From Verrucomicrobiota bacterium (GTDB lineage: Bacteria > Verrucomicrobiota > Verrucomicrobiia > Verrucomicrobiales > DEV007), in assembly GCA_030625775.1 (NCBI GenBank), contig DAOUQC010000041.1, forward strand, positions 1 to 40,741: a stretch of DNA of 40,741 nucleotides, in the 5' to 3' direction. Below, piece after piece: positions 1 to 15,123 of the stretch. Position numbers and translations under genes: made by a program. A model generated the notes under the pieces. It saw only the letters and a program-made list of their open reading frames with translations. It made no database searches and had not been told where the DNA came from. The first letter of the stretch is position 1. Each line of letters starts with the position of its first letter.

Positions 1-18
1 CCTGGCATGATTTATTTA

Positions 19-145
19 GGAGTTAGAATGAAGGAGAAGAGAAGGTGAGAAGTGGATTAATGATTGGCTATTATTGAAGTAAAAAGAGTGATGGAGCGGG
101 TATCTTAACTTCATTACTCAAATTCTAACTCCTTATCTCCTGTCT
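19..145. repeat. Intergenic inverted repeat of the GGAGTTAGAAT family
   Basis: GGAGTTAGAAT at 19-29 is matched by its exact reverse complement ATTCTAACTCC at 122-132, followed by purine/pyrimidine-skewed blocks (AGGAGAAGAG on one side, CTCCTGTCTTC on the other). Related motifs recur in other gaps (about 15.13, 17.65, 23.17, 29.53 and 31.86 kb). No gene is seen between position 1 and the cardiolipin synthase stop at 161. Confidence 0.6.
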
Positions 146-160
146 TCTATCTCCTTCCCC

Positions 161-1615
161 TCACAATACCGGCCCCAGCATCGCGATGGCATTATTCCAA
201 AGTCGTTCTCGCAGGGGCCACTGCGCCACCATTTCCTTAGTCACCGGATGCGAATGAGCCAGATACATATCCTGCCGCTGGTGCATTTCAGCAGTCAGCT
301 TCTCATCATAAAACAGGATATTATTCTCATAGTTCAAGTCAAAACTGCGGCGATCCATATTAGCGGATCCTATTAAGGTCACCTCGCCATCCAGAGTCAA
401 TGATTTGGTGTGTAGTAACCCTCCTTCGTATTCGTGAATCTGAACTCCGGCATCGAGCAACTCCGCATAATAACTTCGACTGGCCGCCCCCACAATCCAC
501 GAATCATTACGTGCAGGGAAAATGATGGTGGTTTTCACTCCACGATAGGCACTCGAGCACAGTGCATTCTGCATCGATTCGTCAGGCACATAATAGGGTG
601 TTGTGATAAACAGTTCCTTACGCGCCGCATACATCAGAGTTTCGAATACCTCGGGCATAGCTGAATGCCTAACCGTTGGTCCAGTGCCAATCACCTGAGC
701 CGTAAATCCAGTCTTCCCATCCGGCATCGGCTGCTTCAAAAGCTCATCGAGATTTTCTTCCACCTGTGCCATCCAGTCACTGGCGAACAAATGCTGGTTC
801 TGCCTCGCGATCGGCCCTTCGAAACGCATCAGTGCATCCACCCAGGGAGCAAATTTTGCTTTAACCCGAAACTCCGGATCTGCGCAGTTCTGACTTCCGC
901 AATAAGTGATATGATTATCAATCACGACAATTTTACGGTGATTCCGCAAATCGATGCGCCCATGTAGTGGTCGCAAAAGCGGGTTACCAATTGGCAGAGC
1001 GGTGGCGACATGAACACCCGCATCCCGCATCGCCGACCAGTGCTCGGATGCAATCATGGCACGCGAACCCAGGCCATCCGCCATCGCCCGACAGGTGACT
1101 TTGCGTCCAGCGGCTCGCTTCAAAGCCTCTACCACCTTGAGCCCATTGTTATCATCCAACCAGATGTAAAAAGTCAGGTTCACATGATCCTTGGCGGCAT
1201 CGATGTCCTCAACCATCGAATCAATCGCAGCATTGGAATCCTTCGTCAGAAACGCCCGGTTACCTCCCACCGCTTCAAAGCCGTTGACCGAATTTCCCAC
1301 CTTGAACAAATGTTCATAACGCTCCGGAACATCCACTTGGAAATTATCCGCATCGATCCCCGGAGTACCCGCAACATCCGGCATCCCCTCAATCACCTTG
1401 TTCATACGCTCCACCCGGCGGCGGCCAATATTCGTTTCCCCCAGCAGAATATAAGCAAGCATTCCAAGCCCTGGCACCACCACGATAACCACCACCCAAG
1501 CCACCCGCGAAGCCGGTTCACGGTGCGGGCGCACAATGGCACGCACAATGAATGCAAGGATGACCAGAAAATACAAAAACGGCCACATAAGGGTAAAAAG
1601 CGCGCTATCGCTCAT
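161..1615 (-). CDS. cls: Cardiolipin synthase (phospholipase D family)
   Basis: A 484-aa membrane enzyme expected to join phosphatidylglycerol molecules into cardiolipin at the inner membrane. Two hydrophobic segments at about residues 8-28 and 38-58 form the PLDc_N-type anchor. The two catalytic HKD motifs are complete: H226-x-K228-x4-D233 and H402-x-K404-x4-D409, each followed by the usual G-S-x-N (GSQN at 240-243, GSAN at 416-419). Length matches bacterial Cls. The ATG overlaps the stop of the upstream hydrolase by one base (TAATG), which implies translational coupling and a shared transcript. No truncation is seen. The family call is firm; the exact phospholipid product is inferred from family knowledge. 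Confidence 0.93.
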   Translation of the reverse strand: MSDSALFTLMWPFLYFLVILAFIVRAIVRPHREPASRVAWVVVIVVVPGLGMLAYILLGETNIGRRRVERMNKVIEGMPDVAGTPGIDADNFQVDVPERYEHLFKVGNSVNGFEAVGGNRAFLTKDSNAAIDSMVEDIDAAKDHVNLTFYIWLDDNNGLKVVEALKRAAGRKVTCRAMADGLGSRAMIASEHWSAMRDAGVHVATALPIGNPLLRPLHGRIDLRNHRKIVVIDNHITYCGSQNCADPEFRVKAKFAPWVDALMRFEGPIARQNQHLFASDWMAQVEENLDELLKQPMPDGKTGFTAQVIGTGPTVRHSAMPEVFETLMYAARKELFITTPYYVPDESMQNALCSSAYRGVKTTIIFPARNDSWIVGAASRSYYAELLDAGVQIHEYEGGLLHTKSLTLDGEVTLIGSANMDRRSFDLNYENNILFYDEKLTAEMHQRQDMYLAHSHPVTKEMVAQWPLRERLWNNAIAMLGPVL

Positions 1616-3117
1616 TATTTCTCCCGAATTGCTTCCAGCATCCGTTCATTCATATACGCGTGAAACGGATTGTGCCTGATCCTAATCAACTGGCTCGGCG
1701 GAATTTCAAACACATGTTTTTCCCCGATCGGATGGAAAGAGCCAATATGAAGACCATAGACAGCTGGATCGGGAGCGACCTCTCCATATAGAGGGTCGTT
1801 TTCCGGAAAGGGAATCGCCACGTGAGCGAGGGAATACACCGCTCTGGGCCAGTTCAGCTCAAGTGGATCCACCGCTACCTTTGCGACGCCAGGCAGCCTT
1901 GAGCGAGCACTCATTTCGTAAGTCTCCGAATCACGATTGCTCACTTTCGTAACGGTGTATTTCAGATTTGCTTCCTTCATCATGAAATCCAACTTTTTGG
2001 CAAACTTCAACGACAGGAAGCTCTCGAGTTTTTCCGAACGATTGATATCAAAAAACACCACTTCGTTACCCTTGCTTTCGAGGTGATCAAAAAGTCCGGT
2101 GACAAGCACCTCAGCTTGAACCGTGGCATCAACGATGGATTGGAAAGCAAGAATCGGCGGCATCCTATCCAAATGATTCTTCTTTTTCACCGCTGCCAGA
2201 CGAACCTGAATTTCATTGGCCAACTGCCAGCTTTGCGTGCCTGCGTTATTGGTGAACGAATTATACTTGTAGGGATCAAATTCAATTTGGATTCCCATCC
2301 ATCTGGATTTCTCGAAATAGGGAATAAAACTATACATGGAAGCCCACCAGGCCGCCCTGGCGAAACCTGTGATTCCAATCGCCGGAGAGAACAGGAAAAG
2401 GCGGTCAGGAACTGGTTCGCCGTTTTCCAAAGCAGCCAAGGTGTGTTGCACCGCCAGAGCTCCGCCATTCGAATAACCACCGATATAAAACGGCAGAGAA
2501 TCACCTAGTTTGCTTTTCACATGTCGAGCTCCGACCTTTACTGCCGCCACCCAGTCTTCCCAATTCACATTTAACAAACCCGCCGGCACGGTGCCATGAC
2601 CAGGCATGCGCATAACCAAGACATAATAACCCTGCTGATGAAAAAGCTCTGCCTGGCTGCGTAAACTATAGGGTGAATCGGACAAACCGTGAAGCAAGAG
2701 CACACCACCTTTTATTTTGTCGGGTACCAGCTCAACCGACCGGTTCCAGTTAATCGGCTGCCGAGCTGGATCCTGCGGCCCGCCTTTTACAAAACGCGAA
2801 AAAGGCGAATGACCTTCGAGTTTGTCCGGATCCAACTTGTAGGTCTCCACTTCAGCGAATAGAGAGTCTTCCAGCTTGAGATACTGCTCCAGTTTGTAAT
2901 CCGCAGTGAGATCCTTAGCGACAAATTCATTCTCAAGCGGCTCATGATGCCACTTCTCGATTTTCGGCATTTTGCGCGCAGTAAAAGCCGATACCAGCAC
3001 GATTGTCATCACCACCGCCAAGGCAATCAGCAGAGAATGAAGCACCCAACTAAGGAGAGCTTTGACCGCATGCGGCTTAGCTTCGGACTCGGCTTCAAGT
3101 TTTGGATCGTCACTCAT
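1615..3117 (-). CDS. Membrane-anchored alpha/beta hydrolase
   Basis: A 500-aa serine hydrolase with a short cytoplasmic N-terminus, one transmembrane helix at about residues 20-45, and a large domain probably outside the cytoplasmic membrane. The oxyanion-type HGLSDSP motif (143-149), the HGT loop near 174 and the nucleophile elbow G-Y-S-N-G (S216) are typical of lysophospholipase-like alpha/beta hydrolases. A C-terminal His near residue 464 or 469 could complete the triad. It is the first gene of a two-gene unit with cls through a TAATG overlap, so a lipid or lysophospholipid substrate is a reasonable inference. Substrate is not determinable from sequence; esterase or thioesterase are alternatives. 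Confidence 0.8.
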   Translation of the reverse strand: MSDDPKLEAESEAKPHAVKALLSWVLHSLLIALAVVMTIVLVSAFTARKMPKIEKWHHEPLENEFVAKDLTADYKLEQYLKLEDSLFAEVETYKLDPDKLEGHSPFSRFVKGGPQDPARQPINWNRSVELVPDKIKGGVLLLHGLSDSPYSLRSQAELFHQQGYYVLVMRMPGHGTVPAGLLNVNWEDWVAAVKVGARHVKSKLGDSLPFYIGGYSNGGALAVQHTLAALENGEPVPDRLFLFSPAIGITGFARAAWWASMYSFIPYFEKSRWMGIQIEFDPYKYNSFTNNAGTQSWQLANEIQVRLAAVKKKNHLDRMPPILAFQSIVDATVQAEVLVTGLFDHLESKGNEVVFFDINRSEKLESFLSLKFAKKLDFMMKEANLKYTVTKVSNRDSETYEMSARSRLPGVAKVAVDPLELNWPRAVYSLAHVAIPFPENDPLYGEVAPDPAVYGLHIGSFHPIGEKHVFEIPPSQLIRIRHNPFHAYMNERMLEAIREK

Positions 3118-3184
3118 GTCTATGATTCTTGAGTAGTGTAGTTTTTGATAGCAAAAATCACTATGCTAGAGAAGGCATGCAGGA

Positions 3185-3216
3185 CAAAAGCTTTTGCAGG
3201 CAAGCTGGAGCTTGCC
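3185..3216. repeat. Two adjacent intergenic palindromes
   Basis: CAAAAG/CTTTTG (3185-3196) is a perfect 12-base palindrome. It is followed by GGCAAGCT-GG-AGCTTGCC (3199-3216), arms of 8 bases with a 2-base centre. They lie between the beta-barrel gene (stop at 3264) and the hydrolase start (3117), both on the minus strand. They may form a transcript 3'-end hairpin or be an intergenic repeat; there is no obvious U-tract. Confidence 0.5.
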
Positions 3217-3263
3217 CGGGCTACAGCGAAGCTCTCCAGTAAAATTATCCATTACGCTCTTTA

Positions 3264-4127
3264 TTACCTAGGCAACAGCAAAGTGACAGCAAAACGCAGC
3301 CCCCATTCAGGTCCATTATCAGGTGTTTCAGCATAGTAGCGGGCGCCCAACTGCCACTGCGTTGGCATTTTGCCGATCGTGATCATCTTGCTGACCATCA
3401 CGTTGATTGGAACGGTCCACTGATCTCCGGTAAAATCGTATGCGCTTTCCGTATTCAGATTGAAAGTCCACCCTTCGCCTGGTACGTAGGCTATGAATGG
3501 TTGAAGAAACATTTGATTCACTGTTGAACGATCAGCAGGAGTATCTACCGCCCAAATCTGATTGGCCAGCATGCCGATGGTAAACTTGCCCTCCTGTTTC
3601 AGCGCTACGAAAGTCGGCCCTAGTCCCCACTGGTTCGCGGTAAGCAAATCTTCCGTTCCCGTTGGTAACAAATAAGCGCCGCCAAAGCCCCAAATCCAAC
3701 CACCCGATGTTGGCTTGGCGGGAGAAAACCAAGTGCTCATGACTGTATCCCCCAAACCATTTTGACTACTGGTACCAATGACATCCGTCTGCGAAATAAC
3801 GGGAAAGATAGATCTCACAATTAAATTCCAGTCCTCATTAATCGTCAAAGGAATGACCGGTTGAACATTCATTTTCCATTGAAATCCGTCGCCATCAGGC
3901 CCCCCGCCAAAATCAAAATTACTTTGGAACGGCACGCTGATCATAGCCGCAAGTGGATTGGCCAGTTTCTTGGCAATTTCATCATTGCCGCTAGCAGGCG
4001 CACCTGTGGTCGTTGTTGCGTCAGCGGCGACCTTCTCTTCGGATTGGGCAGCCGTGGCTGCAAACAAAACAACACTCAGGAAAGATAATTTAAGCAGTTC
4101 GAGAACTCGAGTGGAATTGGTTTTCAT
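3264..4127 (-). CDS. Outer-membrane beta-barrel protein, MetA-pathway/'transporter' type
   Basis: A 287-aa secreted protein. An N-terminal signal peptide (hydrophobic about residues 11-27, cleavage likely around AAQS) precedes alternating amphipathic strands rich in Trp, Tyr and Gly, ending in a hydrophobic LLLPR terminus. The strands resemble the Phenol_MetA_deg/'transporter' family of outer-membrane barrels (F-L-Q-P-F, W-Q-L-G-A-R-Y-Y motifs). The substrate is unknown. Its start lies 75 bases beyond a remnant of the hupE 3' end, so before the aconitase-X insertion it was probably directly downstream of hupE in a ppiC-hupE-barrel operon (inference). Barrel assignment is moderately firm; family name less so. 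Confidence 0.7.
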   Translation of the reverse strand: MKTNSTRVLELLKLSFLSVVLFAATAAQSEEKVAADATTTTGAPASGNDEIAKKLANPLAAMISVPFQSNFDFGGGPDGDGFQWKMNVQPVIPLTINEDWNLIVRSIFPVISQTDVIGTSSQNGLGDTVMSTWFSPAKPTSGGWIWGFGGAYLLPTGTEDLLTANQWGLGPTFVALKQEGKFTIGMLANQIWAVDTPADRSTVNQMFLQPFIAYVPGEGWTFNLNTESAYDFTGDQWTVPINVMVSKMITIGKMPTQWQLGARYYAETPDNGPEWGLRFAVTLLLPR

Positions 4128-4190
4128 GTTGATTCACTGTTACATTTTCAGGTTTTACGTCAATTAAATTGAACTGTAAATGCGACTTAT

Positions 4191-4277
4191 TTTTGATTTT
4201 TTCACAGAAATGACAGTGTTCGTTCGATCGTCCAGAAAGCTGCCACAGCACCAATCGCATAAGGCACCAATTTTCCT
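4191..4277. repeat. Left direct repeat (copy of hupE 3' end)
   Basis: Aligns without gaps to 7981-8067 (offset 3790). By hand count 70 of the 77 bases in 4201-4277 match, and the seven bases TTTTGAT at 4191-4197 also match. Similarity stops on both sides. The repeat pair brackets the aconitase-X large, small and porin genes. Confidence 0.85.
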
Positions 4278-4279
4278 AT
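4202..4279 (-). pseudogene. Remnant of hupE C-terminus
   Basis: Read on the minus strand this stretch encodes the last 24-25 residues of the HupE/UreJ-type protein found intact at 7992-9005, ending in ERTLSFL and a TGA stop in the same place. Most of the base differences from the intact copy are synonymous; two change residues (Val to Ile and Val to Ala). No coding similarity continues rightward past about 4278, so only the gene tail is present. Either it is the original hupE end displaced by an insertion, or it was brought in with incoming DNA. Confidence 0.8.
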
Positions 4280-4330
4280 AGCAATTATCATTTTGCGCCT
4301 GGCACATTTATAGATTTTGGCACAATTTCT

Positions 4331-4431
4331 GTCCCCTGTCCCCTGTCCCCTACGGGTATTTCCAGGAGACCAAATGACCGCAATATATGTCCATTATTCC
4401 ATGGGAAAGGTCTTTTTAAGACCCCGGAATA
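4331..4431 (+). promoter_or_regulatory. Candidate operator region upstream of aconitase X
   Basis: The 386-base gap before the aconitase-X gene holds three exact copies of GTCCCCT (4331-4351). It also holds a nested palindrome: outer arms TATTCC (4395-4400) and GGAATA (4426-4431), inner arms GGTCTT (4409-4414) and AAGACC (4418-4423). The dyad sits about 80-110 bases ahead of the start codon, a plausible regulator-binding or mRNA hairpin site. A short minus-strand reading frame at 4288-4470 is not convincing as a gene. Confidence 0.4.
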
Positions 4432-4513
4432 CTGATATAAATGAGTCTTAAACTCCGTTCTAAATATCAAATTTCATAGAATCGATAAATTTTAACTCAA
4501 AGATACTATCGCC

Positions 4514-6112
4514 ATGAAACGCAGAAACTTTGTTAAAGGAATCCCACTGGTAGCAGCTGTGCCCGCCGCCCTGGTTACACCGAGATGTAAACCCAGCGAC
4601 ACAACCTCAAGCGCAGGGAAGAACGCCACCGCAAAATCGAGCGCAAGTTTTACTAGTGCCGCGAAAGCTGGCAGTTCTAAGGAAGTCCCCGAATTTGCGG
4701 GGAAGATGCTCGATTCCGACATGCAGGGGCTCGGGCCCGATGGTAAACCGACAGGCCAAAAGGCTACCTTCACCGGTGCGTCCATGGCCAATGCCACAGC
4801 CGAAAAAGCTGCCAGCCACAAGATGAAGCTGACCAAAGAGGAGCAGGCTATCCTGGACGGCTCGAAGGGCCCGGAGATGGCTAAGCTCATGAAGATCCAG
4901 GTGGTCTTCGGCAATACCTTCGGCGCTGAGAAGCTCGTCGATCTCGGCGGTGCGCCCCACAGTAATCTCTACCCCGGCGCCCCCTACCTCAGCTCAATGA
5001 TCAAAATGCTCGATGAATGTGCCACGGCCGGACTCAAGTCCTATGCGCCCTACACAGTCAATCCACGCCCCTACGACTGCTTTAATGTTCAGAACAATGA
5101 GGCGGAAATGCAGATCGTTTATGAGGGCTACCCGTTACAGAAAGAACTGGACTGGGTTCATGCCCGCCTCGGAGCACCGGATCTTAACAAACGCTCTTGT
5201 GCCTGCTATGTGAAGGAAGTGGGCAACGCCCCCGAGCCCGGAACCATGGTGGCTTGGGCGGAATCCTCGGCGGTGAACTACGGCAACTCCGTGCTCGGCA
5301 TCCGGACTAACAGGAACGGCGCCGGCATTGACCTGATCAGTGCCATTACAGCCAAGGCGCCTTACTTCGGGCTCATGACTGACGAGGGCCGCCAGGCAAA
5401 GTGGTTGATCGACGTCGTGACCTCGAAGACACCGGACTGGGGTGTTCTCGGAACCGCTATCGGGCGCAAGGTCGTGGAGGATGTGCCTTTCGTAGCCGGT
5501 ATCGATAAATACTTTGAAGATGGCAAGGTCACCGAAGACAACCTGCATCTTCTCAAAGCCATGGGCAGTGCCACCGCCGCTTCTGGTGCTGTCGGGCTAT
5601 ACCACGTCGAGAACTTGACCCCGGATGCGAAAGAGAAGGGCCGCAAGCTGCTCGACGAAGGTTACCAGACCTACGTCTACGACGACGCCGAGGAACAGAA
5701 GATCATCAAGACCTTCGACAACTTGTGGCCAGAGAAGAAAGGGGATCCCACCGGCGCCTTCATCGGCTGCCCACACAACACCCTCTACGAAATGAAGAAG
5801 TGGGGAAAACTGGTCACCGAGGCGCTCGACAAGGCCGGCAAGGAGAAGGCCGCGATGCCCGTCTACATGTTCTGCGCCAACGTCGTCAAGAGTCAACTTC
5901 TCGTGGATGATGGCGAACTCGCTGGCAAGATGCTGGCAGCGGGCATGGTGGCGACTCCCATGTGCGGCGTCACCTGGGCTGGCACGAAGGGCTTCTCGGA
6001 TCGCGTCCGTGGTATCACCAACTCCGCCAAGACGCGGAACTACTCAACAATCCGCTACTTCCCGGATCAGACACTGGTGGACATCATCGTAAGTGGCAAG
6101 GTGCCCGGATAA
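4514..6112 (+). CDS. Tat-signalled aconitase X large (catalytic) subunit
   Basis: A 532-aa member of the aconitase-X family (DUF521/PF04412), whose characterised members dehydrate mevalonate 5-phosphate or cis-3-hydroxy-L-proline. Family hallmarks are WAESSAVNYGNSVLGIRTNR (248-267), the C-x-C pair C229/C231, GCPH (418-421) and C484; these cysteines are the likely Fe or Fe-S ligands. Unusually, the N-terminus is a twin-arginine signal: K-R-R-N-F-V-K (2-8), a hydrophobic segment to about 22, then an Ala/Ser/Lys-rich linker to about 100 before the catalytic domain. C25 is not in a good lipobox. No Shine-Dalgarno sequence is evident at the ATG. Local GC is high (41 of 60 bases at 4921-4980). Start chosen because it gives the intact Tat motif. 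Substrate unknown. Confidence 0.85.
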   Translation: MKRRNFVKGIPLVAAVPAALVTPRCKPSDTTSSAGKNATAKSSASFTSAAKAGSSKEVPEFAGKMLDSDMQGLGPDGKPTGQKATFTGASMANATAEKAASHKMKLTKEEQAILDGSKGPEMAKLMKIQVVFGNTFGAEKLVDLGGAPHSNLYPGAPYLSSMIKMLDECATAGLKSYAPYTVNPRPYDCFNVQNNEAEMQIVYEGYPLQKELDWVHARLGAPDLNKRSCACYVKEVGNAPEPGTMVAWAESSAVNYGNSVLGIRTNRNGAGIDLISAITAKAPYFGLMTDEGRQAKWLIDVVTSKTPDWGVLGTAIGRKVVEDVPFVAGIDKYFEDGKVTEDNLHLLKAMGSATAASGAVGLYHVENLTPDAKEKGRKLLDEGYQTYVYDDAEEQKIIKTFDNLWPEKKGDPTGAFIGCPHNTLYEMKKWGKLVTEALDKAGKEKAAMPVYMFCANVVKSQLLVDDGELAGKMLAAGMVATPMCGVTWAGTKGFSDRVRGITNSAKTRNYSTIRYFPDQTLVDIIVSGKVPG

Positions 6113-6165
6113 GCGCAACTACCAATACCGAGTCACTAAAACGAAAACATTTAACTAAAAAAACA

Positions 6166-6615
6166 ATGGCTAAAAAAACATTCAAAGGACGTGCGGTTCT
6201 TCCTGGCAAACTCGAGGGCAAGGCGCTTGTTTCGAAGATGCCCTTCAACCTCACCGGATCCTACTTCGAGAACATGTTCGCAGGGAACACTACGAGCGCG
6301 CCCTGCACCGACGCAAACAACCCTGACCTGTTCAAGAAAGACATGAAGAACGCGATCTTGTGCACCTCGCAATGCGTCGGATCCACTATGGGAGCGGGTG
6401 CACTCATGGGGGTAAGCGAAATGGGCGTGGGTCTTAAGGCCTTCCTCTTTTCCTCACACATCGACAGTATCGCAGCTGGAGGGCTGATCATCGATGACGT
6501 CTGGTATGACCGACGCGTCATCACCATCGATCTACTTGGAGACGGATTCCTCGAAGCGGTGAATACGGGTGATCCGATCTCAATCGCGGAAGATGGCACG
6601 GTCACGGTTGGTTGA
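6166..6615 (+). CDS. Aconitase X small (swivel) subunit
   Basis: A 149-aa protein matching the DUF126/PF01989 swivel domain that completes aconitase X. The N-terminal K-G-R-A-V-L-P-G-K-L-E-G-K-A-L matches the family opening. GSTMGAG (72-78) corresponds to the usual GSSTGS catalytic turn, and the family end V-N-T-G-D-P-I-S-I is present. The ATG at 6166 is preferred over upstream in-frame codons, which would run back inside the large-subunit gene. It lies 53 bases after that gene in an A-rich leader with no Shine-Dalgarno. It carries no signal peptide although its partner has a Tat signal, so the pair would need co-export of the folded heterodimer (inference). Three cysteines (47, 66, 70) are in an unusually Cys-rich middle region. 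Confidence 0.82.
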   Translation: MAKKTFKGRAVLPGKLEGKALVSKMPFNLTGSYFENMFAGNTTSAPCTDANNPDLFKKDMKNAILCTSQCVGSTMGAGALMGVSEMGVGLKAFLFSSHIDSIAAGGLIIDDVWYDRRVITIDLLGDGFLEAVNTGDPISIAEDGTVTVG

Positions 6616-6675
6616 GATCAACTGAACTTATCCCTGTTGAAAGTTGTATTACCCCATCAGGTAAACTTAGGCTCT

Positions 6676-7986
6676 ATGAAAACTTCAATTTCCTTTATAG
6701 CATTAGTCGGCCTGTTATACTGTTTCACGACAGCAACGACAAGCGCCGAAGAAGACCAGGAAAACGCTTCACAGGACAATGTCTTCGGCAGTGATCCCCA
6801 GGATCCCTCGAATATGCTGAACCACATTAAGCAGAGGCGAGCTCAAGTAGACTCTCTTTTTTCAGTCTCTCCATTAAAGGGGCTCCACGACACCACCGAT
6901 ACGGCGAAGAACAACATTTATAAAGCGACCAGCATCAAGGTGGGATTGACCTTCAATCATCTCTTTCAGGGATTGACGGATGTTTTACCCGGCAGGGACA
7001 ATTGGGGAACCACGACAGACGCCGACTTTGTTGCGAGTTGGGAAATTCTCAACCAGGGAAAACCTACCCAGGGACAAGTTTATTTTCATCTTGAGGGACG
7101 ATGGAATTACGGAACCACAGGCCCGCAAACTTTAGGGTTCAGTAACCTGGGTAGCCAGATTGGTACTGGTAACGCTTTTGAGGAGTATATCCCGGTCGCT
7201 CTGATTAGAAACCTCTATTGGGAACAGGGAAGCTCGGAGGCGGGATGGGCTTACCGGATCGGCAAGATCACCACGGACTCAATCCTGGGGACTTCCAAAC
7301 ACATCACCCCAGTCACCACCTTTCTTCCCAATGCCGGCACCGGTTTTTTCGTAGATGGATTCCCCGACTCGGGTTTCGGAGCAGTGGGTGCCTTGTACTT
7401 CAATGATCGTTTTAAGGTCATCGGGCTTATTTCGGATGCCAACGCCAACCGCTATGACTGGGGAGACCTTGGTGTAGGCGACTTCTATACAGCACTCGAA
7501 CTTGCCGCAAAAATTTTCCCTGGAACCGGAACTGCGGATTTCTCAAAGCTGTCCATCTGGCACACCGACGGCACTGAAAACGGAGCTCCGATCAATGCCA
7601 ATACTGGCAAGGAGGGCTGGGGATATTCGGTAAAGCACGAGCAGGAACTGAGCGATGATGGTCGCGCCATCGGAATTCTCCGCTGGGGGCAAAGCTTTAA
7701 TGAATCAGCCCTCTACAAGTATCAAGCAGGAGCCAATTTCCTCCTCTACGATCCACTCGGGAAGCCGTCAGGGATACAGGACGATCTCGTCGGTCTCGGG
7801 CTCAACTGGGTGGAACCGACTGTTGCGGGATCCCACGATGAATACAACGTCGAGGTCTTTTATCGCTTTCCCCTGTTCCCGGGTGTCGACACAACTCTAA
7901 GTTATCAATCAGTGTTCCATCCCGCTCTGGCCCCCAGCATTGATCATTCCTCCGTGTTCAGTCTTCGTCTACGGTCGGTCTTTTGA
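6676..7986 (+). CDS. OprB-type carbohydrate porin
   Basis: A 436-aa outer-membrane porin with a clear signal peptide (M-K-T-S-I then a hydrophobic core, cleavage near TTSA). The mature barrel contains OprB-family strands (K-V-G-L-T-F-N at the start, E-G-R-W-N-Y, Y-R-I-G-K-I, N-V-E-V-F-Y-R-F near the end) and a C-terminal Phe (LRSVF), the usual barrel-assembly signal. An in-frame TTG at 6637 would place 13 residues ahead of the signal peptide, so the ATG at 6676 is chosen. It lies 60 bases after the aconitase-X small subunit on the same strand and ends exactly at the right direct repeat, so it is probably the uptake component of that cassette (inference). It is paralogous to the porin at 13.8-15.1 kb. 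Confidence 0.85.
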   Translation: MKTSISFIALVGLLYCFTTATTSAEEDQENASQDNVFGSDPQDPSNMLNHIKQRRAQVDSLFSVSPLKGLHDTTDTAKNNIYKATSIKVGLTFNHLFQGLTDVLPGRDNWGTTTDADFVASWEILNQGKPTQGQVYFHLEGRWNYGTTGPQTLGFSNLGSQIGTGNAFEEYIPVALIRNLYWEQGSSEAGWAYRIGKITTDSILGTSKHITPVTTFLPNAGTGFFVDGFPDSGFGAVGALYFNDRFKVIGLISDANANRYDWGDLGVGDFYTALELAAKIFPGTGTADFSKLSIWHTDGTENGAPINANTGKEGWGYSVKHEQELSDDGRAIGILRWGQSFNESALYKYQAGANFLLYDPLGKPSGIQDDLVGLGLNWVEPTVAGSHDEYNVEVFYRFPLFPGVDTTLSYQSVFHPALAPSIDHSSVFSLRLRSVF

Positions 7987-8067
7987 TCTCCTCACAAAAA
8001 CGAAAGCGTTCGTTCGACCGTCCAGAAAGCTGCCACAGCACCAATCACATAAGGCACCAATTTTCCT
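7981..8067. repeat. Right direct repeat (3' end of intact hupE)
   Basis: Partner of 4191-4277. It begins at the porin stop codon and covers the final codons of hupE. The identical core TCCAGAAAGCTGCCACAGCA (8021-8040) is also found at 4231-4250. Confidence 0.85.
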
Positions 8068-9005
8068 GAAAATTCGTGGCTTGGCATGATGTAGCGTTTG
8101 GTGAGGGCAATAAGGCCCGCCACCACCGAGACAAATGCGATCTGCCCGATTTCCACTCCGACATTGAACATCACCAAGGCCAGCGGCACCGCATTTTGTG
8201 GCACTCCAATTTCTGATAATGCTCCCGCAAAACCCAGGCCATGAATGAGCCCGAATGAAAAGGCCACCACCCAGGGGTAATTTGCCGTGAGCGGTTTGTC
8301 CCCTGCTCGCAGCCGAATGATCTCAGCTGCTAGAAAAAGGATGCTCAACGAGATAACGGCTTCCGTAGGCGCCGATGGAACATTCACCATACCCAGAGTT
8401 GCCAGTCCCAGAGTGATGCTGTGTGCCAGTGTGAAAGCTGTGATGGTCCAAAGCAGTTTACGAAAGCCTGACACAATCAACAACAAGGCCAGCAAAAACA
8501 ATAGATGATCGTAACCCTCGAGAATATGAATGGTTCCCATACGCAGATAGGAAAAAGCCAACTGCTTGTTGGTCGCTATTTCAGGAATAGTGAAGCTGTT
8601 GCTGCTGGAACGCAGAATGGTCGAATGCTCCGTCTCGTCCTTAAGCGTGATGCGCACCAGCACATCCACCGGAATGCTTGCAAGACCTTCCACACTCAAA
8701 GTTGATCCATTCAGAACATTGTCTCCCGCACGGTAAGAGCTAGTTTGAATCCAGGCCCCGGGAACACGCCGCCCGGATCCCGGCCCAATCGCCTCAAGAA
8801 AATCAGGCAGCACTGGCTTGACCGCCAACACCTTGTCCGAGCGCATCGGAACCTTCCAGGTCACATCGACCCACCCTCCGTCCCGCTCGACAATTTCCAG
8901 CAAAGCCGGACGAAACTCGTCGGCTTGAGTCGGCAAACAAACGGCAAACAAAAGTGCCCATATTAAAGCTGCGGATTTGAGGAATCTGTTCACCTTCGCA
9001 GACAT
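7992..9005 (-). CDS. HupE/UreJ_2-family membrane protein
   Basis: A 337-aa membrane protein. A signal peptide is followed by an approximately 125-residue periplasmic domain, then about six or seven transmembrane helices. Family motifs, numbered from the GTG at 9008, include the H-I-L-E-G-Y-D-H helix (161-168), A-H-S-I-T-L (195-200) and the G-L-I-H-G-L-G-F-A-G helix (253-262), whose histidines are typical of HupE/UreJ nickel or metal-related transporters. The ATG at 9005 overlaps the TGA of the parvulin gene by one base; a GTG at 9008 is the alternative. Close coupling to a parvulin suggests a shared role in envelope protein or metal handling. Substrate is unproven. Its 3' end is duplicated at 4191-4277. 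Confidence 0.85.
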   Translation of the reverse strand: MSAKVNRFLKSAALIWALLFAVCLPTQADEFRPALLEIVERDGGWVDVTWKVPMRSDKVLAVKPVLPDFLEAIGPGSGRRVPGAWIQTSSYRAGDNVLNGSTLSVEGLASIPVDVLVRITLKDETEHSTILRSSSNSFTIPEIATNKQLAFSYLRMGTIHILEGYDHLLFLLALLLIVSGFRKLLWTITAFTLAHSITLGLATLGMVNVPSAPTEAVISLSILFLAAEIIRLRAGDKPLTANYPWVVAFSFGLIHGLGFAGALSEIGVPQNAVPLALVMFNVGVEIGQIAFVSVVAGLIALTKRYIMPSHEFSGKLVPYVIGAVAAFWTVERTLSFL

Positions 9006-9934
9006 CACTTGGAAACAGCCTCCCCCACTCCGGATTCAGCTTTGCCCTTCGAAACTTTGGCATCATCAATTATTCGATCCTTCGGCACATCATCAATAAC
9101 AATTTCATAGCGCTCCTTGAGGTTCTTCAAAAATTCCGCGTTGAACTGTTCACGTTTATCCTCATGCCATTGCTCAAGCACTTTGGCTTTCACCACTTCC
9201 AGTTTCGGAGCCGGGGCTTTCTGTGTTTTATAAACATAGACCAGGTGCACCCCGTAACCAGACAACACCGGCCCATGCCACTTCCCCTCACCCAGTTTCA
9301 TCACTGACTCGGCAAACCCGGAACCCAACTGCCGCCTGACCTCGACTTCATCCACTGATTCGAAATGATTCTGTAACATGAAGCGGTCCCCCGCTTCCAA
9401 ATTCTGAGGATCAGGCACCCCGGCCGCCTGCAACTCCTTCAGCTCCTTCGCAGCATCGTCGAGAGTTTTCTCATCGCGTTTGTCCGGATCAAAAAACACC
9501 TGGGTGAAGGTGATCAAATCCGCGCCCCGATATGAATCCAGATTATCCTGAAAGTATTTTTCAAGTTCGGCATCCGTCGGCATTTGTGCCTGAGCAAGAT
9601 CACTGGTCAAAAATTCCAGCTTCTGCGCCATGCGTCGACGGGTGATCGGATCGTTTTCGTTCAAACCCATGGCGACTGCCTGGCGATAGAGCACCTCTTC
9701 ATTCACGAACTGCATGATAATCCCATTGATCTCCTTCTCCGTAGGCGGACGATTCCAACGGCTTTGCCATTCAGCGATAAAAGCATCGATACGCCGGGCA
9801 TCGACGCGGATCGATTTGTCACTGTCATCTGATTCCGGAGCGCCAAACAGAGCATAGGCACCGTAGATGCATGCGCCAAGCAGCAGGAAATGCAGCAGCG
9901 GTTCTTTGATGATTCGGACAAATAATTTACTCAT
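9005..9934 (-). CDS. Membrane-anchored parvulin-type peptidylprolyl isomerase
   Basis: A 309-aa protein with one N-terminal transmembrane helix (about residues 13-31), a SurA/PpiC-like helical chaperone region with N-E-E-V-L-Y-R-Q-A, and a parvulin domain at about residues 135-260. The domain is recognisable from F-T-Q-V-F-F-D near its start and G-P-V-L-S-G-Y-G-V-H-L-V near its end. It would catalyse proline isomerisation or chaperone proteins in the periplasm. It is first in an operon with hupE through a TGATG overlap. Some parvulin-core residues diverge, so chaperone activity without strong isomerase activity is possible. Confidence 0.85.
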   Translation of the reverse strand: MSKLFVRIIKEPLLHFLLLGACIYGAYALFGAPESDDSDKSIRVDARRIDAFIAEWQSRWNRPPTEKEINGIIMQFVNEEVLYRQAVAMGLNENDPITRRRMAQKLEFLTSDLAQAQMPTDAELEKYFQDNLDSYRGADLITFTQVFFDPDKRDEKTLDDAAKELKELQAAGVPDPQNLEAGDRFMLQNHFESVDEVEVRRQLGSGFAESVMKLGEGKWHGPVLSGYGVHLVYVYKTQKAPAPKLEVVKAKVLEQWHEDKREQFNAEFLKNLKERYEIVIDDVPKDRIIDDAKVSKGKAESGVGEAVSK

Positions 9935-10100
9935 TGTTTATTCTCTTTTCCTTACTTCATCCTTCAACAGCTGATCCCGCGTCTGAGGGAGAGGCAACCG
10001 AAGCAACGCGGAGATAGACGGGGTCAAACTACCACAGGTAGCCCGAAGGGAAAGGGCGGAGGCCAATCATCAATCTATTTCCTTTCCCCCGCCTTCTCCC

Positions 10101-10739
10101 CTAACCTGCTATTTGATCAAAAGCCTCAATCAGAGCAGCTTCAGTTTGAGCTCCTGAAATACTGTATTGCCCATTGAGAATGAAAAACGGCACCCCGGAG
10201 ATACCTCGTGCTGACGAATGACGGATTTGTTCCTTCACTCGCAACTCATCATCTCCCGCCTCTAACTTCACACATATGGCAATTGCATCCATTCCCACCT
10301 CTCCCGCAATTCTCACCAACACTTCGTGATCTCCAATATTTTCACAATCGACGTGATGGGCAATTAAGAGTTTTTCAGCGAGGCCATTGGTGTCGATATT
10401 ATCATCCTGTTCAGCCCAGAACATCAGCACATGAGCTGAAAGCGTATTTGGCGCCATCGCATCCTTTTCATCACAAAAAGTGATACCCTCTCCTTCTCCA
10501 GCCTTATTCAAATTCTCGCGAAGTTCTTTCAGCCTCTCCTCACCAAATTTATCACGATAGTAATCCCGCCGATTACGCCCCTCACGTGGCATATCCGGGT
10601 TGAGTTGGAATGGCGTCCAAGTGAGTTCGATTTCCAGTTCCGGGCGCAGAGACATAACTTCCTCTAATCTCCGCTTACCCACAAAACACCAGGGACAGGC
10701 GAAGTCAGACACAATTTCTATTTTGAATTTTTTCACCAT
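10101..10739 (-). CDS. DsbA/FrnE-family thiol oxidoreductase (cytoplasmic)
   Basis: A 212-aa thioredoxin-fold protein of the FrnE type. The C-P-W-C active site is at residues 15-18 after the first strand (I-E-I-V-S-D-F-A). The helical insert contains N-P-D-M-P-R-E-G, and the cis-proline region S-G-V-P-F-F-I-L-N (193-ish) precedes the family ending with G-A-Q. No signal peptide is present, so it acts in the cytoplasm, unlike classical DsbA. Length matches the family (about 210-240). It stands alone with about 110-160 bases free on both sides. Partner or substrate is unknown. Confidence 0.9.
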   Translation of the reverse strand: MVKKFKIEIVSDFACPWCFVGKRRLEEVMSLRPELEIELTWTPFQLNPDMPREGRNRRDYYRDKFGEERLKELRENLNKAGEGEGITFCDEKDAMAPNTLSAHVLMFWAEQDDNIDTNGLAEKLLIAHHVDCENIGDHEVLVRIAGEVGMDAIAICVKLEAGDDELRVKEQIRHSSARGISGVPFFILNGQYSISGAQTEAALIEAFDQIAG

Positions 10740-10851
10740 AGAAAAATTCTCTTAATCCTTCATAATTCCTTGTTCATTATTTGATATTTCCTCCCCCTAC
10801 ATCGCTCCCGCCTCCGCAAGTGCCTATCCACGCCATCTTACCAGTCGGCTG

Positions 10852-12702
10852 TCAATTATCCTTTGAATAAGGTATTCCCGCATGCAGATAAAGGATCCGA
10901 CGAATCTCCTCGTTCGAATCCTGATTGCCCGTGATCGTCGTATGCTTGGCATGCACCACCTTCTGCGAAACAGCACTATCCAAATGCGAACTCCAATAGG
11001 GCACCACCGTATCAGTGCTGTTTTCCACCACATCCTTCGGATTATGTCGTCCAATAATGCTATGAATAATGACTCCCTTTCTTATTTTTTGTTCCAGTAC
11101 CGCCATCAGCTCAGGAGCATACGGTTCCAGATCCTTGATACCATCAGGCCTGCTTGCAAGAAGTGTGCGAGCAAGCTCTGTCATCCCGTCAACCACGGGA
11201 ATCGACGTAGCCGTGACTGCCTTAAGGGGGAATTTGATAAGAGCGACACCCAGTTCGCCGATCGACTTGACAGCAATTTCACTACCCCGGTGGGGAGCGG
11301 CGACAAAAACAGCGCGTGTCAGAGCAGGATTGGCACTATACACAAACAAATCCTTCAAAGCGGTTTTCTGTTGTTCACTGAATCCTTCAATCTGGTCGAT
11401 TGGTTTGGTGAAAAATTTGGAAGTAAAAGCATCGCCACTTTCACGAACCTGTGCGCTGGCGAGAAGCCCTCCCATACTGTGACCAATAACAACCATCTTG
11501 CGCATCGCGGGGTTATTGTAACCAGGATCGTATTTTTGCTGAAACTCTCTTATAGCTCTACGTAAATTGGCTGCGCTGTAGGGAATAGGATATCCCGTTG
11601 GGTAAGCAAAAACTAGAAACTGATAACGCTCGCGCAGTGCCGTGTCGGAGTTGAGTTGGTTAAACGCCGCAAACCATGTTCTTGGACTTGACATCAGGCC
11701 GTGAACAAAAATCACCGGAATTTGATCGGGCTGAAATGGCTCAATTTGAAACAAACCCATTTTGTCCGCATATTCATCAGGATGCATCAATGCTCCCATC
11801 CCAATGTTGTGCTTTGGAGCGTAATCGTAAAAAACGGCCAAAGGAGCTGAGTGGTCTGCAGCCAGAGGGAGTTGATGCCCTGCCACCCGGATAGAATCGG
11901 TGACCATCAGATCATGAAACGCCAGTTCCACCCGATTGCCGCCAGAAGAAAAATTGAGCGTTGCGTTTACCGGCAGAGACATGCCCAAGGACGCCAGAAA
12001 GGGATCAACTTTACGACGCTCCGGTAAGCCTTCACGATGCCCCACTAGAGCTGCCCCGATTCCCTTGGTGATATGACGCTCGAATTTTATATCCTCGAAC
12101 TTCAGGTAATCTGCCGGATACAGATCATCATAAAAGTCCGGAGCCACGATGCCTGAACCACTCTTGCGTAGATTCAGACGGTATTTTTTGTCCGGCCCCG
12201 GGTATACCACCGAATCATCCCATGGCACATCGGAGTCGAATAAAATCTGCACCACCTCCTCCGTGCTGTCGTTATACGCCTTAATAAATTTGTCGTGCCC
12301 TGATGATACCTGGGAGGAAGCGAAACCGTTTGCAATGGCCGCCTCCGCAGCCGCAAGATGATAAGCTACAGCTTTTTTGGGGTTCTTTCTCTCCGCCCGA
12401 TTAGCCGTAATATTACAAATTTCAATCAAGGCCATGCGCCCCGCATCAGAAGGAGTCTCGGTGAGGTGCTTTCGCAGGCCGGCAACTGTGCTATCCGGAT
12501 CTTTTCTATAATCTTCGGGTAGCCCCTGTTTCTTCAGATAGGATCGCGCTTCCGGACTGAGCCGGCCTTGATCGAGCAAGGCTGACAAAGTTGACGCCTC
12601 CCCTGCCGGGTGATTCAGTTTTTTAACACTGGGACTGGCACAGGAAAGCAGAAAAACAGCCTGTAGCACAGCAAGGGTATATAGAGACGTATTGGCTTTC
12701 AT
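10852..12702 (-). CDS. Lipase-like alpha/beta hydrolase lipoprotein
   Basis: A 616-aa protein with a lipoprotein signal ending in L-L-S-C (lipidated C21). The N-terminal 300 residues are helical then beta-rich and unassigned. The C-terminal half is an alpha/beta hydrolase: V-I-F-V-H-G-L-M-S-S (330-339) for the oxyanion hole, and nucleophile S409 in G-H-S-M-G. A downstream Asp and the terminal H-T-T region could complete the triad. It resembles PGAP1/lipase-type proteins. It is likely anchored in the outer membrane or periplasm and acts on lipid esters. It follows the antiporter pseudogene on the same strand with no clear operon partner. Confidence 0.8.
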   Translation of the reverse strand: MKANTSLYTLAVLQAVFLLSCASPSVKKLNHPAGEASTLSALLDQGRLSPEARSYLKKQGLPEDYRKDPDSTVAGLRKHLTETPSDAGRMALIEICNITANRAERKNPKKAVAYHLAAAEAAIANGFASSQVSSGHDKFIKAYNDSTEEVVQILFDSDVPWDDSVVYPGPDKKYRLNLRKSGSGIVAPDFYDDLYPADYLKFEDIKFERHITKGIGAALVGHREGLPERRKVDPFLASLGMSLPVNATLNFSSGGNRVELAFHDLMVTDSIRVAGHQLPLAADHSAPLAVFYDYAPKHNIGMGALMHPDEYADKMGLFQIEPFQPDQIPVIFVHGLMSSPRTWFAAFNQLNSDTALRERYQFLVFAYPTGYPIPYSAANLRRAIREFQQKYDPGYNNPAMRKMVVIGHSMGGLLASAQVRESGDAFTSKFFTKPIDQIEGFSEQQKTALKDLFVYSANPALTRAVFVAAPHRGSEIAVKSIGELGVALIKFPLKAVTATSIPVVDGMTELARTLLASRPDGIKDLEPYAPELMAVLEQKIRKGVIIHSIIGRHNPKDVVENSTDTVVPYWSSHLDSAVSQKVVHAKHTTITGNQDSNEEIRRILYLHAGIPYSKDN

Positions 12703-13720: not shown

Positions 13721-13824
13721 GCTTCACGAAGGCCCCCGCTCAAATCAAATACCTTTTCCTACATCTAAAAGAAAGTTTTGAGAATCCGGTGATTTTAAGT
13801 AAGTTTCCTGGAACCCGCCTGTTG

Positions 13825-15123
13825 ATGATCAAATACTTCAAACATTATTGCTTCCCTCTTCACCGCCATCTGTTGGCCGTGAGCCTGGCAGTATTCTGGT
13901 CAATGACCAGCTCGAGCCAAGCCCAGTCTGAAAATTCCAGCCCCAAAAAGAGCACCGCGATCACAGAATCATCTGATGAAATTGACACAACTCTTGATGA
14001 TGTCAGTCAATCTCGAAAAACGGTGTTCCGCAATGGTCCCTTGGAAAGCCCCTTGGAAGCATGGGAAGATTTCTGGAAACTTTTTGATGAAAAAACCGGG
14101 CTCTCAATGGCCTTCGCTTACACCACCCTTTTCCAGGCAGCGACCAATGGCCACTATACAGGCCCACGAAGTGGAGGCAGCGGAGATTTTGATATGATCG
14201 GACGCTGGAGCTTCCTCAATTCCGACGTTCACAATGGATGGATAAATGAGGGCACTCTGGGTTTTTCTACCGAATACCGGCATAAAATTGGTAATGCCAC
14301 GCCAGCCGATATTGGTGATTCTATCGGGTCTTTATGGGGCACTACCTCTGGTTTTAACGAAGAGGATTTCACCTTGAAAGAAATATGGTGGCATCAGAAT
14401 TTATTCGATGACCACCTGGCTTTTCGTCTGGGCAGATTAAGACTCGATAATATTTTTGACGCCTATCGATTTACGGGCTCCAATCATTTTTACACAAATA
14501 AGGCTTTTTCCCGTAATCCAACCATCCCCTTTCCAAACACCAACATAGGACTGGTTTTCTCCTGGCAACCGAGAAAAGACCTGTTTGCTATCATTGGAGG
14601 AGGAAGATCTGATGGTAGAGAATCCGAAACCTCAGCCGCGCAAGAACAAGCTGAAGAATGGTTCACTGCCACGACTTTCGGATGGAAACCTGAACACAGT
14701 TTTGGGAAAGGACTATATCAGATTACTTTGTGGCACAGCGAAAATCGCAACAACTCAAACGTCCCCACTGCATCAGGATACTCCGTTCTGCTACAACAAG
14801 AATTATCAAAAGGTTGGACCCCCTTTATTCGATATGCAGAGTCAGATGACCGAGCGACTAATACAAAACAAATATTCACTGCAGGGGTCGTACAGGAGGG
14901 CCATCACAATAGACCGAATGATCGCATAGGAATTGCTGTGGCTTGGGGCCAGCCCCACAACCCAAGGTATACAGACCAATGGACAGCTGAACTGTTTTAT
15001 CGCTATTCGGTCATCCCCACCTTTCGAATCACCCCTAGTGCGCAAATAATAATTAACCCGTCACATAATTCCTACGATCAAGTCGTCGGCATATTCGGCC
15101 TGAGAGGAAGATTGACCTTTTAA
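13825..15123 (+). CDS. OprB-type carbohydrate porin (second copy)
   Basis: A 432-aa outer-membrane porin. A signal peptide of about 33 residues (basic start, hydrophobic core, S-S-S-Q-A cleavage) is followed by a Ser/Lys-rich stretch and an OprB barrel. Its strands (L-A-F-R-L-G-R-L, E-L-F-Y-R-Y) match those of the porin at 6.7-8.0 kb, and it ends R-G-R-L-T-F with the terminal Phe needed for barrel assembly. The ATG at 13825 is preferred to an in-frame GTG at 13789 because it starts the signal peptide directly. It has no close same-strand partner. Uptake of sugars or similar small polar solutes is the family role; the actual substrate is unknown. Confidence 0.83.
   Translation: MIKYFKHYCFPLHRHLLAVSLAVFWSMTSSSQAQSENSSPKKSTAITESSDEIDTTLDDVSQSRKTVFRNGPLESPLEAWEDFWKLFDEKTGLSMAFAYTTLFQAATNGHYTGPRSGGSGDFDMIGRWSFLNSDVHNGWINEGTLGFSTEYRHKIGNATPADIGDSIGSLWGTTSGFNEEDFTLKEIWWHQNLFDDHLAFRLGRLRLDNIFDAYRFTGSNHFYTNKAFSRNPTIPFPNTNIGLVFSWQPRKDLFAIIGGGRSDGRESETSAAQEQAEEWFTATTFGWKPEHSFGKGLYQITLWHSENRNNSNVPTASGYSVLLQQELSKGWTPFIRYAESDDRATNTKQIFTAGVVQEGHHNRPNDRIGIAVAWGQPHNPRYTDQWTAELFYRYSVIPTFRITPSAQIIINPSHNSYDQVVGIFGLRGRLTF

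Follow-up and report, generated by a model that had tools for sequence, protein, structure and literature searches.

A Twin-Arginine-Type N-Terminus in a Small Clade of Aconitase X Large Subunits from Two Bacterial Phyla

Two-chain aconitase X and single-signal Tat complexes

Two-chain aconitase X (AcnX) is represented structurally by the type II enzyme of Thermococcus kodakarensis (TkAcnX; 7cnr/7cns), a mevalonate 5-phosphate dehydratase. In the portions of its structural report drawn on here, three large-subunit cysteines (Cys110, Cys283, and Cys342) ligate the cluster; Thr63(S), Ser130, and Lys361 contact the carboxylate of the substrate, and Glu129 and Lys361 its C3 hydroxyl, with Tyr365 working via water and Ser62(S) as the likely base (PMC8184944). 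Transport of a complex on one signal by the twin-arginine translocation (Tat) pathway, or hitchhiking, is established for PaoABC in the excerpt used of a second source (PMC4273604). The window considered in this work, the whole 40,741-nucleotide stretch of DNA analyzed from a Verrucomicrobiota bacterium (contig DAOUQC010000041.1), encodes an AcnX pair in which the large subunit opens with a Tat-type signal and the small, or swivel, subunit has none. The AcnX family has so far been described only inside the cell; large subunits of this type form a small, distinct branch of it in distantly related bacteria, and their signal suggests that the enzyme works beyond the inner membrane alongside other exported proteins. 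To our knowledge, no exported member of the aconitase superfamily has been described. No exported AcnX was found in the titles and abstract openings surveyed, which covered open-license literature only, and the word "periplasm" does not occur in those parts of the two AcnX papers used here; an aconitase-family protein predicted to be "extracellular" in Pseudomonas syringae is mentioned in an excerpt that does not name AcnX (PMC6110883).

The reading favored here, with somewhat better than even confidence, is that the AcnX heterodimer would be exported by Tat in folded form to act as a dehydratase in the periplasm. Both subunits would fold and receive the iron-sulfur (Fe-S) cluster in the cytoplasm, the complex would cross the Tat pore on the signal of the large subunit, the swivel subunit hitchhiking, and the exported enzyme would remove water from a 3-hydroxycarboxylate that enters by the neighboring porin. 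The original prediction had likewise proposed a periplasmic AcnX assembled inside and co-exported; this survives as the best reading of a conserved signal and an adjacent unsignaled partner, with export itself deduced from sequence.

A Tat-type N-terminus common to one AcnX clade

The Tat-type N-terminus is a trait common to a small AcnX clade in two phyla. The window pair exceeds the cut-offs of both family models, PF04412 for the large subunit and PF01989 for the swivel subunit (Table 1), which places it in AcnX. The closest PDB structure to the large subunit is 7cnr_A, the large subunit of Thermococcus AcnX (3.9e-36), and a swivel-subunit profile matches 2hi6 and 7cnr_B. The window's genome carries a single AcnX copy, with 53 bases between the two genes. 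As originally noted, the large-subunit open reading frame (ORF) opens MKRRNFVK and runs on into a hydrophobic stretch, and the swivel protein, which starts MAKKTF, lacks a signal peptide, as do its aligned relatives. A scan of genome contigs recovered three further loci, in a Desulfobulbaceae metagenome-assembled genome (MAG; L002), Rubritalea profundi SAORIC-165 (L003), and the Olavius-associated symbiont Delta 1 (L004, two copies); a fifth carrier genome, G535 (L045), belongs to the same class as the Olavius symbiont. NCBI taxonomy places Rubritalea in Verrucomicrobiota, Desulfobulbaceae in Thermodesulfobacteriota, and the Olavius symbiont under Deltaproteobacteria. Copies present under several locus names (L002/L006/L049; L003/L007/L050; L004/L008-L009/L048; L012/L045) were counted once, leaving six copies in five genomes, the window's included.

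In all six, the residues R3-R4-x-F6-x-K8 are invariant (KRRNFVK in the window; DRRKFIK, GRRSFAK, NRRQFIK, NRRKFIK, and NRREFIK in the relatives) and are followed by a hydrophobic stretch, the RR-x-F-x-K arrangement of Tat substrates, whose consensus is given as S-R-R-x-F-L-K in the part of the source used (PMC7317946). Apart from this motif, the first 56 residues are mostly variable in the clade, a signal-peptide-like pattern. TatC, the only Tat component searched, scores over its cut-off in 5/5 carrier genomes. A lipoprotein reading of the N-terminus was rejected, since T-P-R-C does not fit the lipobox. In a background scan of 233 ORFs from the window and 13 loci for RRx[FLIVM] within the first 35 residues and a hydrophobic stretch thereafter, 11 were positive, nine of them cassette proteins and two lying outside (window 28204-29508; L089 1236-1757); the scan missed the AcnX of L045 (hydrophobicity 1.12, threshold 1.2) and of L050 (first start over-long). 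The window ORF among these outsiders, on the minus strand, carries another Tat-type N-terminus (TRRHFM) away from the AcnX locus.

The rest of the family was represented by a contrast set of 69 rows, the best AcnX ORF from each of 68 loci plus the window. A match beginning at profile position 1 is confined to the six Tat copies. In the remaining 63 rows the match starts at positions 73-102, with two exceptions, L040 (at 224, a fragment) and L071 (at 223). An RR-x-F-type motif with a hydrophobic stretch upstream of the domain was found in 0/63, eight of which carry RR among residues 1-60 when the ORF is read from its first start. The AcnX domain directly follows the RR in L074 and L029, and of the eight only L058 has a hydrophobic stretch after its RR, at 3-4 if the first possible start is used, in the context YRRNT with no F; this extension is probably spurious. 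In a tree of 68 rows (the 210-residue L040 fragment omitted) and 427 columns, from which columns less than 30% filled, and with them the Tat region, were dropped, the six Tat copies form one clade with support of 100/99, implying a single change of state, and the other 62 rows have no such N-terminus. Its sister group comprises six unsignaled rows (L010, L013, L014, and L056-L058; 87/79, with 100/100 for all twelve); three more sister-type matches, L103-L105, with profile starts of 85-91, are absent from the tree. The family tree scored for Tat signals that the original prediction had proposed places all signaled copies together. That prediction had also named homologues without a conserved signal and a true start downstream of the Tat region as outcomes against it; the signal is conserved in 6/6, and the conserved N-terminal residues argue against a later start.

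What had been described as a low-complexity linker of ~80 residues between signal and catalytic domain holds only in part. A variable stretch is present, but it spans only ~30 residues (27-56), and residues 57-103 are strongly conserved in the clade, with an approximate consensus of VPDFAxxMLxSDMxGLGPDGKPTGQKATFTGASxANATAEKAxxHKMKLT. This segment is not part of the shorter AcnX relatives, whose profile matches mostly begin between positions 85 and 102.

The rarity of the Tat type was gauged in genome sets that overlap and contain the query's own genome, the phylum and class draws being samples. The window's own family has an AcnX match in 1/74 genomes (Tat type in 1) and its own phylum in 2/387 (Tat type in 1), the second match being a 20.6-bit fragment. 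Matches number 34/291 in the class of G462 (Tat type in 2), 48/389 in its order (2), 3/193 in the class of G460 (1), 33/395 in its phylum (1), and 2/195 in the family of G461 (1). Among 72,556 plasmid records, 160 have a match, all below 60% identity, the best being Rhodococcus opacus AcnX at 39%.

Conservation of the catalytic site

The original prediction had placed cysteines at 229, 231, 419, and 484, where they are indeed found; C229, C231, and C484 recur in 6/6 subfamily members and C419 in 5/6. Residues were mapped from alignments, K506 and Y510 being placed by their spacing from the last cysteine, C484. C229, C419, and C484 correspond to C110, C283, and C342 of TkAcnX, the cluster cysteines of type II, and E250, S251, K506, and Y510 to E129, S130, K361, and Y365, these last four residues being kept in 6/6. 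A valine, V486, occupies the position of the AtAcnX ligand C510, and the ligand set present is therefore of the TkAcnX type; against NF051439 the window protein scores 124.8 bits, far below the curated cut-off of 700. Swivel S73, kept in 5/5 aligned small subunits, is by homology the likely general base. Because the catalytic residues are conserved, dehydration of a 3-hydroxycarboxylate is supported.

The part of the site facing the rest of the substrate is unlike that of either known activity, reading S150-N151-L152-Y153 in the window and T-S-F/A-F in two relatives, though in a region of low alignment confidence. Deriving the substrate from active-site residues was rejected, as the landmark residues of both known AcnX activities do not transfer; for this reason, and because types IIc-IIf are left open in the structural paper (PMC8184944), no substrate is named here. 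Both cis-3-hydroxy-L-proline and mevalonate 5-phosphate are improbable candidates. The sugar acid offered originally as one candidate is not supported, nothing having been found for or against it. A substrate could not be read from the sister clade either: the neighbors there, a flavin mononucleotide (FMN) oxidoreductase (L047, L086), a sodium/dicarboxylate-type symporter (L046), and an amidohydrolase (L085), are not consistent enough, and this approach was dropped. The FMN oxidoreductase directly adjoins the unsignaled AcnX pair (L047:10161-12164; L086:11403-13688), an arrangement that would fit reduction of an enoate product as the following step.

Export of the complex and its alternatives

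In 6/6 copies the swivel gene is adjacent to the signaled gene and itself unsignaled, a gene arrangement that fits a hitchhiker complex. A swivel subunit without signal would also agree with export of the large subunit alone, its partner staying inside and the exported protein being no AcnX dehydratase. This is very improbable in light of the adjacency in every copy and the retention of swivel S73 together with the catalytic residues of the large subunit. Neighbors of Tat-type AcnX were counted for export of the complex as well; they include porins and other signaled proteins, to which the deltaproteobacterial contigs add further Tat-tagged enzymes.

Several observations weigh against a functional, exported heterodimer. 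The window protein scores 12.8 bits in the Tat model TIGR01409, under the cut-off of 16.7, and the L003 copy gave no match in that search; the L002 copy also falls below (14.4 bits), and three relatives exceed the cut-off (22.9, 19.0, and 19.5 bits). Cleavage sites of AxA type are good in L002 (AHA), L003 (VQA), L004a (AQA), and L045 (AQA) and weaker in L004b (VPA) and the window, whose ATA lies at residue 38, with no good AxA near the hydrophobic stretch. The cluster cysteines are complete in five of the six members, L045 having Arg at C419. An AlphaFold model from a five-row alignment has a mean predicted local distance difference test (pLDDT) score of 44.6 and does not place residues 57-103. 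Outside the cytoplasm, the open-site cluster of an Fe-S dehydratase would be cut off from the repair systems that normally serve it. Finally, neither the window's genome nor Rubritalea yielded a Tat-tagged partner enzyme, including the Tat-tagged short-chain dehydrogenase/reductase (SDR) proteins described below, for which the two genomes gave 13 and 5 matches with best scores of 59.1 and 37.3 bits; the 59.1-bit match (25%) is an ordinary SDR with TGGGSGIG and YSMSK. As none was found in its genome, the Tat-SDR does not belong to the system of the window itself.

Two of these observations bear on alternative locations. The sub-threshold Tat scores of the window and L003, like the lack of a signal in the sister clade, would be expected if the enzyme were cytoplasmic after all and worked inside like its relatives, its N-terminus being a relic or the true start lying downstream. 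That is unlikely, as RR, F, and K do not vary between the two phyla while the other residues of the first 56 drift, any domain-type start would fall downstream of the conserved segment 57-103, and the neighbors are exported proteins. The poor cleavage site could instead reflect an enzyme that is exported but anchored, its uncleaved signal holding it to the periplasmic side of the inner membrane with the long variable stretch as a possible tether; usable AxA-type sites in 4/5 relatives leave this arrangement, too, with a small chance. Export of the folded pair by Tat stays the preferred reading. If it is correct, the assembly, export, and survival of a labile open-site cluster without cytoplasmic repair would become testable in an Fe-S dehydratase that is not a redox enzyme and lies beyond the inner membrane. 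The clade also marks an AcnX class whose neighbors narrow the chemistry, and it draws attention to a Tat-tagged relative of halohydrin dehalogenases.

Tat-tagged enzymes in the deltaproteobacterial contigs

Tat-tagged SDR proteins (Table 1) are encoded directly after the swivel gene in L045 and L002/L049. Of the two L048 copies, the second has this same arrangement, and in the first the SDR gene lies three genes farther along. A profile of the four sequences finds the halohydrin dehalogenase 7wkq as its best PDB match (2.2e-61), followed by 8h8y and AbHheG (8hqp), with HheG (5o30) at 2e-47; beyond some further matches of this group lie 4yqz, a "putative oxidoreductase" (1.8e-22), and the named reductase 6ci9 (4.5e-22). 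A single-sequence PDB search agrees, and Pfam and NCBIfam class the proteins as ordinary SDRs. Of the halohydrin dehalogenase motifs given in the part of the source used (PMC4989007), S-x12-Y-x3-R is present in 4/4 and T-x4-F/Y-x-G in 0/4, where the sequence reads N/T-x4-Q/N-x-G with Q or N for the aromatic residue; because this second motif fails throughout, the proteins are labeled halohydrin-dehalogenase-like and not members. A reading dependent on nicotinamide adenine dinucleotide (NAD) was dropped, the Ser-Tyr-Arg triad being present and the glycine motif lost. In halohydrin dehalogenases a nucleophile pocket replaces the nicotinamide site, according to the same excerpt (PMC4989007), and such a pocket would suit a periplasmic enzyme. 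No paper joining halohydrin dehalogenase with twin-arginine was found in the open-license literature.

The Olavius symbiont contig additionally encodes a BKACE-like protein with a Tat-type N-terminus, MNRRKFLE (L048:9506-10537; PF05853, 136.7 bits). Known BKACE enzymes use acetyl-coenzyme A (acetyl-CoA), which is not expected outside the cytoplasm. A periplasmic catabolic route without CoA or soluble NAD(P) can be proposed only tentatively: AcnX and the cofactor-free Tat-SDR, joined in one deltaproteobacterial carrier by the BKACE-like protein, might act on porin-admitted hydroxy or epoxy acids, and the AcnX core might have passed to Verrucomicrobiota with another kind of porin.

Porins and other neighbors

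Porins near AcnX are OprB-like in the window and L003, of DcaP type in L002/L049 (40.5 bits) and L045 (62.7% identical to that of L002/L049), and in L048 a candidate whose similarity to these is limited to 91-128 residues. The window porin itself, taken for OprB in the original prediction, gave no Pfam match up to E 0.01, and its L003 ortholog scores 26.6 bits for OprB against a cut-off of 22.9. Another OprB-family porin (13789-15123, plus strand; 69.9 bits) lies ~5.8 kb past the first.

The recurrent exported protein upstream of the large-subunit gene has no Pfam match. The window's alpha/beta hydrolase (10852-12702) recurs in Rubritalea at 35%, and an ABM-domain protein lies upstream of AcnX in L045 and L002/L049. 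Beyond the cassette, L049/L089 encodes DUF3604, DUF1254/DUF1214, sulfatase, and HAD proteins; relatives of its sulfatase and HAD protein are also encoded close to the AcnX of Rubritalea. In the Desulfobulbaceae MAG as in Rubritalea, sulfatase genes and an exported HAD-type protein lie near the cassette (L089:8998-16775; L003:1-2598). Literature listings consulted for DUF3604 and DUF1254/DUF1214 functions offered nothing useful for these neighbors.

Table 1. Positions of the AcnX locus and associated features. Coordinates refer to the window unless a locus name is given.
Feature	Coordinates	Strand	Basis and remarks
Exported protein, 287 aa, recurring near other AcnX cassettes	3264..4127	-	L003 41%, L049 33%, L048 partial
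87-nt direct repeat, left copy	4191..4277	.	brackets the acnX-porin segment
AcnX large subunit, 532 aa	4514..6112	+	opens MKRRNFVKGIPLVAAVPAALVTPRCK; PF04412, 253.3 bits against a cut-off of 31.5
Tat-type signal, residues 1-27	4514..4594	+	K-R-R-N-F-V-K, hydrophobic GIPLVAAVPAALVT, then basic residues; no good AxA site; motif; TIGR01409, 12.8 bits, below the cut-off
Conserved clade-specific segment, residues 57-103	4682..4822	+	alignment of Tat-type copies
AcnX catalytic domain, residues 104-511	4823..6046	+	PF04412; C229, C419, C484 (ligands by homology), E250, S251, K506, Y510
AcnX small (swivel) subunit, 149 aa	6166..6615	+	starts MAKKTF, no signal; PF01989, 28.9 bits against a cut-off of 27
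OprB-like porin, Sec-type signal	6676..7986	+	60 bases behind the swivel gene; Rubritalea ortholog 71% identical
87-nt direct repeat, right copy	7981..8067	.	90% identical; overlaps the 3' end of the HupE/UreJ gene 7992-9008(-)
Tat-tagged SDR proteins	L002:8154-9107; L045:7492-8439; L048:4776-5717 and 8367-9359		closest to halohydrin dehalogenases

Indications of horizontal transfer

Comparison with a housekeeping protein points to movement of the AcnX gene set between phyla. The window large subunit is 87% identical to that of Rubritalea, 80% to that of the Desulfobulbaceae MAG, and 70% to the first copy of the symbiont, whereas ribosomal S1 shows 76%, 47%, and 50%, respectively; the high AcnX identity across phyla relative to S1 (80% versus 47%) therefore points to horizontal transfer. 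The S1 identity to Rubritalea would also put the window's genome in Verrucomicrobiota. At the DNA level the window AcnX segment is 85% identical to Rubritalea over 1,908 nt and 80% to the Desulfobulbaceae MAG over 1,941 nt. The direct repeats that bracket the acnX-porin segment (Table 1) suggest its site of entry: the right copy reaches into the HupE/UreJ gene (HupE_UreJ_2, 160.5 bits) at its 3' end, and the segment may therefore have been inserted there. Guanine-plus-cytosine content is 57-58% over 4501-6000, compared with 40-55% in the other 500-base steps of 1-12500. No matching direct repeats were found in L049 or in L050 9000-19900.

Comparison with known systems

The window system shares with PaoABC and HybOC of E. 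coli a single signaled subunit and, by the reading favored here, an Fe-S cofactor put in place before export, as described for those two (PMC4273604); it differs in that they are redox enzymes, whereas AcnX is a dehydratase. TkAcnX, also of two chains, is its best solved relative but has neither a Tat-type N-terminus nor the segment 57-103; the TkAcnX phosphate-binding stretch, A47-G48-V49-S50/N53, aligns at A47-S50 with window S150-N151-L152-Y153, at low alignment confidence. AtAcnX has the fold family and the catalytic Ser/Lys/Tyr in common with the window protein, yet it is a single chain where the window system has two, its Asp203 corresponds to window S150, and its third ligand, C510, is the second Cys of a C-x-C motif. 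The G-type halohydrin dehalogenases (7wkq, 5o30) are set apart from the Tat-SDRs by the Tat signal that the latter bear. Nearest of all in the tree is the unsignaled sister clade, which includes the 39% identical protein encoded on a Rhodococcus opacus plasmid (L010); its proteins begin at the catalytic domain, whereas those of the Tat-type clade extend upstream through the conserved segment to the twin arginines.

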